NCBI RefSeq assembly: GCF_947498095.1
Contig: NZ_CANMJE010000007.1
Span: 124,001-188,000 of the forward strand
DNA from: an uncultured Shimia sp.
Lineage (GTDB): Bacteria > Pseudomonadota > Alphaproteobacteria > Rhodobacterales > Rhodobacteraceae
Direction of reading: 5' to 3'
DNA: 64,000 nt
Made by a program: the position numbers and the translations under genes. The notes below the pieces were generated by a model. That model had not been told where the DNA came from and did not search any database. It worked only from the letters and a program-made list of their open reading frames with translations. This document shows, in pieces, positions 44,705-50,135 of this stretch; the stretch's first letter is position 1; each line of letters opens with the position of its first letter.

Positions 44705-45439
44705 TTATCCACGCCCGATGTAAGGCATTTTTGTCGCCATCACCGTCATGAACTGAACATTCGCTTCTGGTGGCATTTCCGCCATGTGCAGGACAGAGCG
44801 CGCGGCTTCATCCACGTTCATGCTGGGCATCAGTTCCGCGTTCGGGTCTGCAGCGAGAATGCGGGCGTTCAGATCACGCACCATATCGGTTTCGGCGTTG
44901 CCAATATCGATCTGGCTGCAGGCAATATCAAACGCACGACCGTCCAGTGAGAGGCTGCGCGTCATGCCGGTAATCGCGTGTTTTGAGGTTGTATAGGACA
45001 CGGATCCCGGTCGCGGATTGTGGGCAGACAACGACCCGTTGTTGATGATCCGCCCACCTTGGGGGGATTGATGCCGCATGAGCTCAAACGCAAGCTGGGC
45101 GCAGATGAACATACCACGCACATTGACGTTAAGAACCTCTTCGAAACTGTTCAAAGGCACCTCATCGATTGGACCCGCAGTTCCAAACATTCCGGCATTG
45201 TTGAACAGCACGTCCAAACGACCCGTCTGATCCGTGAACTGTTTAAAGGCCTCTGCCATTTGGTTTTGATTGGTCACATCTGCAGGCAAGGAAATGGCGT
45301 TGTCGTAACCAGCGGCCAAATCGTTCAGGCGTTCGGCCCGACGGGCCACAAGTCCGACGTGCCAGCCAGCTTTCAGAAAGACTTCGGCCGTAGCGGCGCC
45401 AATTCCAGAGCTCGCTCCGGTAATAAGAATGGTCTTCAC
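44705..45439 (-). CDS. Short-chain dehydrogenase/reductase
   Basis: NAD(P)-dependent SDR of 244 residues. GASSGIGAATAEV near residue 8 binds the cofactor, NNAGMFG near residue 86 stabilises the core, and the Tyr/Lys of VSYTTSKHA near 148 form the catalytic pair. Start codon is GTG at 45439, in a GTGA overlap with the upstream helicase gene. Its substrate is not known. It converges with the TIGR02186 gene, with no gap between the stop codons. Confidence 0.87.
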   Translation of the reverse strand: MKTILITGASSGIGAATAEVFLKAGWHVGLVARRAERLNDLAAGYDNAISLPADVTNQNQMAEAFKQFTDQTGRLDVLFNNAGMFGTAGPIDEVPLNSFEEVLNVNVRGMFICAQLAFELMRHQSPQGGRIINNGSLSAHNPRPGSVSYTTSKHAITGMTRSLSLDGRAFDIACSQIDIGNAETDMVRDLNARILAADPNAELMPSMNVDEAARSVLHMAEMPPEANVQFMTVMATKMPYIGRG

Positions 45440-46962
45440 GTCGTTTCCTCCTGTGTAAGCGTCAAGGGAGCTGGCGCGACTCGCAAATCATCCACACGCA
45501 ATGGTCCCGAAGGGCGCGACAAACGGTTGCGCACCACCCAATGCAGGCGTTCCTGCGCACGCGTGATTGCGACGTAGGCCAGACGCTTCCACAGGGGTTG
45601 CCCAGCTTCGATACGCCCCATTTTCGAGGCCACATAGAGGTCTGGGGCAAAGACCTGAACGTCTTCCCACTGCGAGCCTTGGGCCTTGTGAATGGTGACC
45701 GCAGCGCCATGCAAAAATGTTGCCCCCATGCGCGCAGCAAACGGGATAAAGGGTTCTTCCTCGTCCGGTTTTTCGATTTTAACGATCGAAGCCGCAGAGA
45801 CTTGCGGGTCTTCTGCACCAATCACGTGCAACCGGGAAAACCCGGGTTTGCGCCCTGGTTCGAGATAGATCACCTGCGCCCCCTTGATCAGGCCTCGCGC
45901 CTCAAGGTCCAACCGCTTTTTGCGGTGTTTCAGGGGCAGTTCAATGCCATCACAAATCAAAGGCTCGCCTTCCAGCAGCATATCATCTGGTGCGTCATAG
46001 ACCGCCCGGAAGGCGTTGATCAGGCGAATGCGCGTCGCGTTACGCCAAACAAGAACGGGGCTGCGGGCCATCAGATCTACCTCAACCCGTTGGCTCCAAA
46101 CCACACGATCATCGCGTTTCGCTGCTTCCTCGATCATCTGCTCAAAGGATTGAAAATCAAGCATCGGGTCGGCCAACGCGTGGGCGAGATCGAGAATTGG
46201 GTTATCCGCATCCTGACGGTGGATACGTTGCAACTCGAATTTCGAGTCCACTGGCATCGTGTCGAAAACCATCGCCCCGGATTGGTTCACCGGGGCCAGC
46301 TGCGCCGGGTCGCCAAACAGTAAAAGCGTTGAGAAGATCTCTTTCAGATCCTCAAACTGGCGGTCATCCAGCATCGATCCTTCGTCAACAAACCCAATAT
46401 CAAGTGGTTCGTCGCGACGCTTCCATCCAGTGATGAAATCCGACCCACGCAAGCCAGCAGCGGCCAGCGCGCCGGGGATGGATTTGTGACTCTGATAAAA
46501 GGCATGCGCGCGGTTCAAGGCCTCATCCGTCAGGCCCTCAATCTCGGGGCGCTCACCCTGCCCGGCCAACCACTCCGCTATACGTTCATATTCGGGATCA
46601 TAGACCGGGGTATAGAGAATGCGGTGGATCGTGGTTGCCGGCACACCCCGCATACGCAGCACGCTCGCGGCCTTGTTGGTTGGGGCCAAGATGGCCAGCG
46701 TCCGGCGATCCTTGTGCTTTTTACCCTCATAGTCGCCGGAAACAATTGTCACCCCAGCAGAATCAAGCTCTTTCACCAATTCCGCAAGCAACAGGGTTTT
46801 GCCGGACCCGGCCTTTCCCACCACCGCGGCGACGGAGGATTTGCCGTCCCGTGGAGGCGTTAGAAGATTGTCCTCCAGATCAACACCCGCCGCGCGCAGC
46901 ATCTCGGTGATGTTGTCAAAGGCAGCAGCCTGATCGTGGGAAAGCGTCAGCGCGGTAGTCAT
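45436..46962 (-). CDS. RecD-like ATP-dependent DNA helicase (superfamily 1)
   Basis: SF1 helicase of 508 residues. Motif I is GKAGSGKTLL near residue 50, a Walker B-type DEGSMLDD near 195, and motif VI-like region VTIHKAQGSQWEDV near 430, with VAITRAQERLHWVV at the end. This size and layout fit the stand-alone RecD2/AAA_30 type, without RecB or RecC genes nearby. It overlaps the SDR gene by 4 bases. The luxI gene lies just upstream (41-base gap) in the same direction, so it may be transcribed with luxI. Confidence 0.86.
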   Translation of the reverse strand: MTTALTLSHDQAAAFDNITEMLRAAGVDLEDNLLTPPRDGKSSVAAVVGKAGSGKTLLLAELVKELDSAGVTIVSGDYEGKKHKDRRTLAILAPTNKAASVLRMRGVPATTIHRILYTPVYDPEYERIAEWLAGQGERPEIEGLTDEALNRAHAFYQSHKSIPGALAAAGLRGSDFITGWKRRDEPLDIGFVDEGSMLDDRQFEDLKEIFSTLLLFGDPAQLAPVNQSGAMVFDTMPVDSKFELQRIHRQDADNPILDLAHALADPMLDFQSFEQMIEEAAKRDDRVVWSQRVEVDLMARSPVLVWRNATRIRLINAFRAVYDAPDDMLLEGEPLICDGIELPLKHRKKRLDLEARGLIKGAQVIYLEPGRKPGFSRLHVIGAEDPQVSAASIVKIEKPDEEEPFIPFAARMGATFLHGAAVTIHKAQGSQWEDVQVFAPDLYVASKMGRIEAGQPLWKRLAYVAITRAQERLHWVVRNRLSRPSGPLRVDDLRVAPAPLTLTQEETT

Positions 46963-47003: not shown

Positions 47004-47654
47004 TTATGCTGTTTGTGCGATTTCTCGGCCCACATCTGGCGAGGATGTCCGACCGAATGAGAGGTCAAACCATCTGCGCGACAGATCCAGTGGAATGCCT
47101 GCTCGTTCGCCAACGGCGCGACGCGACTCTTGTGAAAAACTCCACAGTCCGACACTGATTTTGTCACGACCCTCTCCCTTGGCGCCAAGCACCTCGGGTG
47201 ACGAACCGATCATCCGGTAAATCCGTACCATTCGCGCATCAAAAACACCGACATAGTGTTCGACGCCGAAGCCTTCCATTACCTCGCCCCCGGCCAGCAT
47301 CAGGGCGGCAGCGGTGCGTGGCTCAGCGTCGCGAGACAGACAAAATCGGGTACATTCCCAGATCAGAGGACTCATAATACGGACCCCATCGGTGATATCG
47401 AGGAAATGGTCATTCACCATACAAGGCCCGGTCGTGGGCAGCAGTCGCATCGAGCCGCCATGTGATCCATCGGGTTTCTCCCAAATCACATAAAGCGGAT
47501 TCAGCTTGTCATAGTCATCATGTTCTTCTCCATCTGCATCCACGTGCACGTCCCACCCAAGGCGAACCTTGAATTGGTCAGCACGGTCGCGAAACATCGA
47601 CTGTTTCAGCTTCGGAAACTTGTCCAGGTCACTGGCATAAATATAACGGATCAT
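47004..47654 (-). CDS. luxI: N-acyl-homoserine lactone synthase (LuxI family)
   Basis: Acyl-homoserine lactone synthase of 216 residues. The LuxI invariant residues are visible: Arg and Phe in FRDRADQF and Trp in RLGWDV near residues 22-34, Asp in DDYDKLNPLYV near 48, GGSMRLLPT near 66, and Glu/Arg of WECTRFCL near 97. Its acyl chain specificity is not readable. It is followed by the RecD-like helicase and preceded, across an 89-base gap with CtrA-like sites, by the 3' end of luxR on the same strand. Confidence 0.94.
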   Translation of the reverse strand: MIRYIYASDLDKFPKLKQSMFRDRADQFKVRLGWDVHVDADGEEHDDYDKLNPLYVIWEKPDGSHGGSMRLLPTTGPCMVNDHFLDITDGVRIMSPLIWECTRFCLSRDAEPRTAAALMLAGGEVMEGFGVEHYVGVFDARMVRIYRMIGSSPEVLGAKGEGRDKISVGLWSFSQESRRAVGERAGIPLDLSRRWFDLSFGRTSSPDVGREIAQTA

Positions 47655-47704
47655 TCTGGCATCCCTTTCCGTTTCGGAATGGGAAGACAGCTAGCCAAGC
47701 AGGG

Positions 47705-47742
47705 TTAATCGCCTGCTAACGGGGCGCGCAGGCATTAACCAT
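47705..47742 (-). promoter_or_regulatory. Candidate CtrA sites upstream of luxI
   Basis: TTAATCGCCTGCTAAC (47705-47720) fits TTAA-N7-CTAA, and TTAACCAT (47735-47742) is a classic CtrA half-site. Both lie in the luxR-luxI gap, 51-88 bases before the luxI ATG. Confidence 0.55.
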
Positions 47743-47743
47743 T

Positions 47744-48463
47744 TCAAACGACAATTAGGCCTCGGCTGAGAGCTCTTGCTACCGCATGAGTTGTATTTAG
47801 CGCTCCCAATTTGGAGCGAGCAGACTCGATATACACCCTGAGTGTGTGCTCTGAGATCGAGAGTGTTTCCGCAACTTGCGCACGGCTATAGCCCATCGCA
47901 ATGAGGGTCATGGCATCAATTTCACGGGGGGACAGTGCACGTGACTGTTCATGATTGCGCCCTGGCTCAATCTCCAGCGCTTTCTTGTTGAACTCATGTG
48001 CTATCAGGATCAGGTCACGGCGGTTGGCATCCTTAAACCTGGCCCACTCTTCGTCAGAACAATGGTGTGACGCAGTAAATAGGGCGAACTGCCCGATAGG
48101 ACCTCGGATTGGCACCGAGAAGCCCTGATTGCCGATACCATAGGCGATAGCGTCGGCCTGAAACTCGCGTGCGGCTTTTGACGACCAGTCCAGCCGCTTC
48201 CAATCTACCGGGTGAAACCTTTGATAACATCCAATAATAACGGGATCTACGCGCAAGTAATCCTTGTCCAGATACCGTTGGACCCACTCATCCGAATAAG
48301 TACCACAGCCAAACTGTTCACCACTGGAGCTGACCCAGTGGTAAACAAGATGGTCTATGCGGAAGTGATCGCGTAATTCAACAATCGTGTTTTGAAGGGC
48401 CTCAAGCCCGTGCGCGCTCTCGAGCGTTTCCAGAATAAGTTCCCGTCGAGGTATCATCCCCAT
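47744..48463 (-). CDS. luxR: LuxR-family quorum-sensing regulator
   Basis: Regulator of 239 residues. The N-terminal half (residues 10-165) is the autoinducer-binding domain, with the IDHLVYHWVSSSG and GFSVPIRGP segments. The C-terminal domain has the HTH LSPREIDAMTLIAMGYSRAQVAETL near residue 175 and ISEHTLRVYIESARSKLG. It lies upstream of luxI on the same strand. Its start region overlaps a 71-residue ORF by 62 bases, so translation may be coupled. ATG 48457 (MIPRREL) is an alternative start. Confidence 0.92.
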   Translation of the reverse strand: MGMIPRRELILETLESAHGLEALQNTIVELRDHFRIDHLVYHWVSSSGEQFGCGTYSDEWVQRYLDKDYLRVDPVIIGCYQRFHPVDWKRLDWSSKAAREFQADAIAYGIGNQGFSVPIRGPIGQFALFTASHHCSDEEWARFKDANRRDLILIAHEFNKKALEIEPGRNHEQSRALSPREIDAMTLIAMGYSRAQVAETLSISEHTLRVYIESARSKLGALNTTHAVARALSRGLIVV

Positions 48464-48617
48464 GAGCCACCAAACCCGTCATGTCGGAGACACTGACAAT
48501 CTCGATTGCTGCAATCTGCCGGGTTTCTTCCAGTTGATCCGCAAGAACCCTAAGGTCATTTGCATGGGCAAATGTCTTCAGATCCGCAAGAACGTCGAGT
48601 ATCCAATCATATTTCAT
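48402..48617 (-). CDS. Small protein upstream of and overlapping luxR
   Basis: ORF of 71 residues starting MKYDWILDVLADLKTFAHANDLRVL, a likely amphipathic helical protein, followed by QLEETRQIAAIEIVSV. It has an ATG with GAGAG eight bases upstream and ends inside luxR, overlapping it by 62 bases in another frame. Similar short ORFs are found before luxR in other roseobacters, from memory, which supports a real gene. Role unknown; it could be a leader coupling luxR translation or a regulator of LuxR activity. Confidence 0.65.
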   Translation of the reverse strand: MKYDWILDVLADLKTFAHANDLRVLADQLEETRQIAAIEIVSVSDMTGLVAHGDDTSTGTYSGNARERARA

Positions 48618-48637
48618 AACAACTCTCGGTTTAAGGG

Positions 48638-48654
48638 GTTAACGAATGGTTAAC
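48638..48654. promoter_or_regulatory. Full CtrA-consensus site before the luxR unit
   Basis: GTTAACGAATGGTTAAC contains TTAA, seven bases, TTAA, the exact CtrA full site; the opposite strand reads TTAACCAT. It lies 21-37 bases upstream of the small ORF that precedes luxR. A 12-base palindrome AGCACGAGTGCT (48663-48674) is next to it. Confidence 0.65.
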
Positions 48655-48848
48655 ACAAGCATAGCACGAGTGCTTTCCGTTCATAAATTCGCGTAAATGC
48701 ACTCCCCCAAAATAGCGGGTCAGTGGTTTCCAAAGCGTTGAAAAGCAATCATTTGGGCAAAAACAATGAAAAACCCGCGGCGCCCAGTCGGGTGCCACGG
48801 GTGATTCGGTCGTTAACCTTTACGCAACCTTAAGGTCGCGTTGGCGGA

Positions 48849-50135
48849 TTACTTACCGGCCTCAAGAACTTCCTCAACAGTCCGCAAACCGGTTTTTGGG
48901 GCCTGAACCAGAACCGCCATGTTGCCGGGCTTGTGCTCGTTGCGCAGCATCTTGGTGTGAGCGGCAGGAATCTCGTCCCAGGCGAACACTTCGGACATGC
49001 ACGGGTCGAGGCGACGTTCGCACATCAGACGGTTGGCGGACGCGGCCTGTTTCAGGTTGGCAAAGTGCGACCCCTGAAGACGTTTCTGGTGCATCCACAT
49101 GTAGCGCACGTCAAAGGTGGTGTTGAACCCTGAGGTCCCCGCACAGATCACGACGATACCGCCCTTTTTCACCACAAGTGTCGAAACTGGAAAAGTTGCC
49201 TCACCGGGGTGTTCAAACACCATGTCGACGCTGACACCTTTGCCGGTGATGTCCCAGATCGCCTTGCCGAATTTGCGGGCTTCTTTCAGCCACGCATTAT
49301 ACTCCGGCGAGTTCACGATGGGCAGTTGGCCCCAGCAATCAAAATCCTTGCGGTTGATGACGCCTTTGGCGCCCTGATCCATAACGAACTGGCGTTTGCT
49401 TTCATCCGAGATAACACCGATCGCGTTGGCACCAGCGGTATTGGCCAGCTGGATCGCGTAAGAGCCCAAACCACCCGAAGCCCCCCAGACCAGAACATTC
49501 TGACCGGGACGCAGTTCATGCGGATGGTGACCGAACAGCATGCGATATGCGGTGGCTAGCGTAAGTGTGTAGCAGGCGGCCTCTTCCCAAGTCAGATGCT
49601 TGGGGCGTGGCATCAGCTGCTGTGCCTGCACTTTGGTGAACTGTGCGAATGATCCGTCGCCAGTCTCGTAACCCCAGATACGTTGGGTGGGGGAGAACAT
49701 CGGATCGCCACCGTTACATTCTTCGTCGTCGCCGTCATCCTGATTACAGTGGATCACGACCTCGTCGCCCACTTTCCAGTTTTTGACTTTGTCGCCGACT
49801 TTCCAGACGATACCAGAGGCATCAGAGCCGGCAATGTGGAAATCCTGACCGTGGACGTCAAATGGTGAAATCGGCTGGCCAAGACCGGCCCAAACGCCGT
49901 TGTAGTTTACGCCTGCAGCCATCACGAGCACCAGCACTTCGTGGCTGTCGATCTCCCAGGTATCAACGACTTCTTTTTTGAACGATTGTTCCGGCTCACC
50001 GTGACGCTCGCGGCGGATCGCCCAAGCGTACATTTTCTTAGGCACGTAGCCCAATGGGGGCATTTCCCCGATTTCATAAAGGTCTTTCTCGGGCGCCTCG
50101 TAGGGGGCGATGGCAATATCGGTGTCCAGAGCCAT
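48849..50135 (-). CDS. ccr: Crotonyl-CoA carboxylase/reductase
   Basis: Key enzyme of the ethylmalonyl-CoA pathway that reduces and carboxylates crotonyl-CoA to ethylmalonyl-CoA with NADPH. The 428-residue MDR protein shows GVNYNGVWAGLGQP near residue 75, the MFSPTQRIWGYETGDGSF region near 148, the cofactor loop VWGASGGLGSYA near 217, and FEHPGEATFPVS near 330, with the Glu/His residues used by this family. Start at 50135 follows CAGGAG; upstream extension is rejected. A 29-bp inverted repeat lies upstream. Confidence 0.96.
   Translation of the reverse strand: MALDTDIAIAPYEAPEKDLYEIGEMPPLGYVPKKMYAWAIRRERHGEPEQSFKKEVVDTWEIDSHEVLVLVMAAGVNYNGVWAGLGQPISPFDVHGQDFHIAGSDASGIVWKVGDKVKNWKVGDEVVIHCNQDDGDDEECNGGDPMFSPTQRIWGYETGDGSFAQFTKVQAQQLMPRPKHLTWEEAACYTLTLATAYRMLFGHHPHELRPGQNVLVWGASGGLGSYAIQLANTAGANAIGVISDESKRQFVMDQGAKGVINRKDFDCWGQLPIVNSPEYNAWLKEARKFGKAIWDITGKGVSVDMVFEHPGEATFPVSTLVVKKGGIVVICAGTSGFNTTFDVRYMWMHQKRLQGSHFANLKQAASANRLMCERRLDPCMSEVFAWDEIPAAHTKMLRNEHKPGNMAVLVQAPKTGLRTVEEVLEAGK

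Follow-up and report, generated by a model that had tools for sequence, protein, structure and literature searches.

Does CtrA act on the quorum-sensing genes of this bacterium and, if so, does it turn them up or down? The locus itself raises the question: a CtrA consensus without a single mismatch stands directly in front of a luxR–luxI pair in the window (the whole 64-kb stretch of DNA that was analysed). Our answer, which we hold to be probable, is that selection has maintained a CtrA box here, in front of the ccr-linked luxRI operon, and that CtrA~P bound to it most likely activates a promoter just downstream, P_down, closing a positive loop.

The box and its setting

The genes of the locus lie on the minus strand in the order ccr, small ORF, luxR, luxI, helicase, short-chain dehydrogenase:

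48849–50135, minus strand: ccr, crotonyl-CoA carboxylase/reductase (NCBIfam TIGR01751), the upstream neighbour and marker of topology B
48638–48654, minus strand: CtrA full box, core TTAACCATTCGTTAA (48653 to 48639), near-palindromic
48402–48617, minus strand: small ORF, a conserved small protein gene (71 aa) with a 62-nt out-of-frame overlap with luxR
47744–48463, minus strand: luxR, autoinducer-binding regulator, 239 aa (Pfam PF03472, PF00196)
47004–47654, minus strand: luxI, acyl-homoserine-lactone synthase, 216 aa (Pfam PF00765)
44705–46962, minus strand: after luxI, a helicase-like AAA protein (45436–46962) and a short-chain dehydrogenase (44705–45439), both from Pfam matches

This is the arrangement that Cude and Buchan termed topology B1 (PMC3824088), with ccr before luxRI and a helicase and a short-chain dehydrogenase after; in the window the helicase comes first of the two. 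Dshi_2852/2851 of Dinoroseobacter shibae is also topology B1, and topology B was called the most prevalent type of roseobacter quorum-sensing operon in 2013 (PMC3824088). The passages on topology B1 in that paper mention no CtrA box and no small ORF.

The initial annotation called the motif an exact TTAA-N7-TTAA and placed it before the small ORF and luxR, and it was right in both respects. GTTAACGAATGGTTAAC occupies 48638–48654, between ccr and the small ORF, and within it TTAACGAATGGTTAA, at 48639–48653, is the sole TTAA-N7-TTAA of the window. It has the form of a full CtrA site, TTAA-N7-TTAA(C), and can be read as a site on either strand. In the gene-strand reading, TTAACCATTCGTTAA begins at 48653 and the ATG of the small ORF follows 36 nt past that start; the box itself is 21 bp from the ORF. 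Presence alone proves little. Dinucleotide shuffles lead one to expect 0.15 such motifs per window (15 of 100 shuffles had one), so that the box in the window, taken by itself, is weak evidence, and the whole genome holds 15 TTAA-N7-TTAA sites against 45 sites of the backward control, which means that there is no genome-wide excess. Whatever significance the box has comes from its conservation.

Conservation among relatives

Is the motif conserved upstream of orthologous luxR genes? It is: of the 80 named relatives, taken as the best of 580 loci in a scan of named genomes, 73 have the exact box in the same place, 185–199 nt ahead of the luxR start (aligned to that of the window). An initial sample of 60 genomes had given a full box at the corresponding place in 14 of 17 luxR upstream regions, that of the window included. 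When 480 bp around the luxR start were searched in the 80 named relatives and the window together, TTAA-N7-TTAA was found in 74 of the 81 loci, against 0–4 loci for each of the other spacings (N2–N6 and N8–N13); N7 is thus the sole conserved spacing. AATT-N7-AATT occurs in three of the same 81 regions, and dinucleotide shuffles of these regions produce TTAA-N7-TTAA at 0.46% per locus. Among the seven named relatives without the box, four (L060, L081, L090 and L109) reach 7 of the 8 core positions at some point of the region searched; the other three (L107, L083 and L099) reach 5–6.

Conservation extends through the family. We surveyed 394 genomes from 393 genera, one genome per genus, for LuxR and for a strict pattern, defined as the box followed by 30–37 nt and then by small-ORF codons. 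LuxR was present at E <= 1e-40 in 231 genomes and the strict pattern in 150; the backward control matched once. Eight of the 150 matches were compared by coordinates, by eye, and all eight lay directly before luxR. Outside the strict pattern, the exact box was still present in 6 of 19 hand-picked LuxR loci, and in 5 of the 15 loci where a script found the small ORF, no more than 6 of the 8 core positions are left. Loss of the box through loss of ctrA can be rejected for the five boxless genomes sampled, all of which have kept ctrA.

A quick LuxR tree was built from 87 rows, and the 10 of them that have no exact box require six changes on it, against a mean of 9.6 when the rows are shuffled, and none of 500 shuffles came as low as six. 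An ancestral box with several losses fits this tree, in which long branches and near-copies preclude proof. The box looks ancestral rather than scattered and, conserved as it is at orthologous promoters, is very probably a functional CtrA site.

CtrA and its own promoters

The genome encodes a CtrA. The protein scores 423.6 bits against the NCBIfam CtrA equivalog NF045991 (cut-off 350) and is 74% identical to a Caulobacter CtrA. All 24 sampled genomes have ctrA, the copy in one of them (G130) with a stop inside the match. Of 25 ctrA upstream regions from the family (L039, L228–L251), 23 contain (G/T)TAA-N7-TTAA(C/T), mostly followed by an A and a T at fixed distance, a pattern that suggests conserved autoregulation of ctrA.

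Two predicted promoters around one box

Two candidate promoters, one on either side of the box, can be read from the aligned loci, together with a dyad farther upstream:

48622–48627, minus strand: predicted -10 core of P_down, GAGAGT (A at 48626, T at 48622), its A-N3-T 16–17 nt after the TTAAC start
48658–48666, minus strand: predicted extended -10 of P_up, TGCTATGCT, column profile TG-n-TA-nnn-T
48702–48720, minus strand: conserved GC-rich dyad ACCCGCTATTTTGGGGGAG, from the profile, upstream of P_up

Measured from the TTAAC start, A-N3-T falls at offset 17 in 51 and at offset 16 in 21 of the 74 luxR boxes. In 41 luxR loci taken one per genus (the first 41 listed of the 150 strict-pattern genomes, all with the box and D. 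shibae among them) the two offsets are split more evenly, 19 at 16 and 17 at 17. The luxR–luxI gap has A-N3-T at 17 in 37 of 69 loci and at 16 in 14, and the ctrA promoters have it at 16 in 19 of 23 (2 of the 25 regions, without an anchor match, were dropped). The background of A-N3-T, as a median over offsets, is 0–2 in the three promoter sets. A smaller peak of the luxR set, at offset 23 (30 of 74), has the T of the start codon as its T. The -10 core of P_down shares positions with what is likely the ribosome-binding site of the small ORF, and conservation of A-N3-T in the luxR set consequently has a second possible cause; the luxI and ctrA sets are much less confounded in this way, their start codons being farther off. 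The predicted start of P_down is at about 48615, on the start codon of the small ORF.

This geometry is that of promoters that CtrA is known to activate. In the CtrA promoters of the R. sphaeroides fla2 genes (PMC6180460), mapped starts lie 23–24 nt after the box with an A at -11, an arrangement that the predicted P_down would share. The difference is that the fla2 targets are flagellar and their starts mapped, whereas in the window the target is luxRI and the start predicted; none of the promoter sets analysed here showed the G at -4 that the R. sphaeroides promoters have. In Caulobacter, the full box of CtrA-activated promoters begins near -35 to -39 (PMC4287350), which the place of the box before the predicted P_down start would also fit.

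The second predicted promoter is P_up. In the column profile of the 74 boxed loci TG-n-TA-nnn-T stands at -13 to -5 (T 93%, G 95%; T 93%, A 95%; T 96%), and TGnTAnnnT occurs at an identical offset, ending 4 nt before the box, in 29 of the 41 per-genus loci. We take it for the signature of an extended -10, and the P_up start is then predicted inside the box, at about 48651. TGnTAnnnT is retained, at roughly the same distance from the small ORF, in four of five loci in which the box has been lost, so it is apparently a separate promoter element. With an extended -10 just upstream, the box over the predicted P_up start would be in a repressing position for that promoter.

There is a precedent for such a double arrangement in the Caulobacter ctrA promoters P2 and P3 (PMC4287350): a single full motif serves an activated start from -39 and at the same time covers another promoter, which is repressed, as we predict for the window. 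Relative to the repressed start, the Caulobacter motif begins at -14 and that of the window, by prediction, at about -2; a further difference is that the downstream start of the window is predicted to cut off the small ORF.

The dyad upstream of P_up, family consensus CCCTCNCYATTTYNGGGGAG, could possibly be bound by LuxR or by another activator. As a lux box with further targets in the genome it is unsupported: searching the genome with up to two mismatches to the family consensus returned the luxR copy and two others, all three with two mismatches.

A half-site before luxI

A second CtrA-like site lies between luxR and luxI:

47704–47719, minus strand: TTAGCAGGCGATTAAC, matching 8 of 9 positions, in the luxR–luxI gap

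After 2 of the 81 loci were left out for want of a recognised luxI start, forward TTAAC was found in the luxR–luxI gap of 70 of the remaining 79, where mononucleotide shuffles lead one to expect 6.2. Eight or nine of the nine positions are matched before luxI in 12 of the 79, and 5 of these 12 are the window and its near relatives (L042, L043, L044 and L077). A full second box as a general feature is thus rejected, and the TTAAC half alone is general. Possibly it marks a second CtrA-dependent start, for luxI.

A conserved small gene

A script recognised the ORF between the box and luxR in 80 of the 81 loci; in the remaining one it was identified by eye. Over the 564 pairs with pS of 0.1–0.6, the median pN/pS is 0.38 for its own frame; the two alternative frames, filtered alike, give 1.1 and 2.0. 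It looks to be a conserved coding gene under purifying selection. The protein has no Pfam or NCBIfam match. AlphaFold2 predicts a helical hairpin with a low-confidence tail: helices at residues 4–19 and 23–49 with a mean pLDDT of 76, and residues 51–71 below 50. A fold search was uninformative, with 30 matches at E <= 10 and none at E <= 0.001. In the open-licence PMC literature we found no report of the small ORF, or of two promoters at the luxRI operon.

CtrA and quorum sensing in other roseobacters

In D. shibae, expression of luxR2I2 and of luxI3 falls in ctrA, chpT and cckA mutants, so that luxR2I2 depends on the CtrA phosphorelay (Wang et al. 2014, PMC4046655). The genes luxR1 and luxI1, in a different operon, are unchanged in the same mutants, which means that luxRI operons are not under CtrA control in general (PMC4046655). 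Two perfect CtrA sites are reported in the luxR2 promoter, and the same paper describes quorum-sensing-linked CtrA sites predicted in some other roseobacters and in rhizobia; it calls them scattered and suggests for them repeated independent origin (PMC4046655). When autoinducer is added to D. shibae, luxR2I2 rises after ctrA (PMC6473078). In Ruegeria KLH11, quorum sensing lies upstream of ctrA, and feedback was speculated upon by the authors (PMC3692519); CtrA-like sites before cckA had no effect there with ctrA supplied, a reminder that CtrA sites do not guarantee regulation (PMC3692519).

One of our genomes, G083, is D. shibae (it matches pDSHI01 at 100% over 2001 bases). In its luxR2 locus (L150; 5001 bp examined), ccr, the small ORF and luxI are all present. 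The box is there once as an exact match, and 180 nt farther upstream stands CTAATAAAATCTTAA, which departs from the motif by one mismatch. The two sites of the literature may be the palindromic box counted on both strands. The luxR2I2 operon (Dshi_2852/2851) has the gene order, the small ORF, the box and the upstream -10-like element of the window. Where the 2014 account saw scattered sites (PMC4046655), the survey here finds one positionally fixed site in many genera, and this speaks against several separate origins, at any rate for this operon in this family.

The suggestion in the initial annotation that CtrA acts on quorum sensing thus gains support on three sides: the box in orthologs, the CtrA of the genome itself and the mutant genetics of D. 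shibae (PMC4046655). The feedback loop has been in print since 2014, for D. shibae, and the idea is not new; what this analysis adds is how widely the box is conserved, the predicted layout with two promoters, the half-site before luxI and the conserved small gene.

Activation, repression or another regulator

Activation would proceed as follows. CtrA~P on the box would recruit RNA polymerase to P_down, with its A-N3-T 16–17 nt after the TTAAC start, and transcription would begin at or just after the ATG of the small ORF. Active CtrA would then raise luxR, and luxI too, aided by the second TTAAC half-site. If CtrA raises luxRI, and quorum sensing raises ctrA in roseobacters, the loop is positive. 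Since the box covers the P_up start, CtrA would at the same time block P_up. Direct binding of CtrA to the box, both start sites and the blocking of P_up are what we infer.

Three other readings compete with this one. CtrA might act directly as a repressor at the P_up start and lower luxRI, a negative feedback, in which case the loss of expression in D. shibae would be indirect. In its favour, the end of TGnTAnnnT lies 4 nt short of the box in 29 of the 41 per-genus loci, so that the box would span about -2 to +13 of the P_up start, and the element persists in 4 of 5 loci in which the box was lost. In Caulobacter, CtrA motifs at -14, or lying over the -10 region, act to repress (PMC4287350). 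We nevertheless think it unlikely: the D. shibae genetics show net activation in an operon of the same kind (PMC4046655), and both the shared downstream A-N3-T geometry and the TTAACCA form of the downstream half match activated promoters.

Less likely by some way is that the box belongs to another regulator with a TTAAC-like half-site, such as an Fnr/Dnr-type protein. The Dnr/Fnr site of D. shibae nosR2, TTAAC-N4-GTCAA, has a half in common with CtrA sites, and luxR2 transcript goes up when fnrL or dnrE is lost (PMC7232146). The spacing that is conserved, however, is TTAA-N7-TTAA; the site in the window is exactly the TTAAC-N5-GTTAAC that PMC7232146 gives for CtrA; and the second half is TTAAC in 95% of the 74 loci, which were selected for having the box. 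Chance, finally, could account for one box in one window, given the 0.15 expected and the lack of a genome-wide excess, but it is ruled out for practical purposes by conservation: the box stands at a single position among 73 of the 80 named relatives and among 150 of the 394 genomes of the family, and the N7 spacing alone is kept.

An observation made in one species becomes a wide rule: the topology B operon is apparently wired to the cell-cycle and motility regulator CtrA. For testing, we can now name a candidate promoter on either side of the box, the small conserved protein and the half-site that precedes luxI. A bolder proposal, which we regard as speculative and rather doubtful, is that the one box works as a promoter switch. 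Without CtrA, P_up would give a leadered mRNA for the small protein and LuxR–LuxI; with CtrA, the P_up start would be covered and transcription would begin on the start codon of the small ORF, giving a luxR–luxI mRNA without that ORF. If this is true, CtrA sets not only the amount of LuxR, in many genera, but also whether a small helical protein is made.

A search for plasmid-borne relatives of LuxI found none at 60% identity or more. Within the genus the distribution of the regulator is patchy, with a luxR ortholog (at least 70% identity) in 9 of 24 other genomes.
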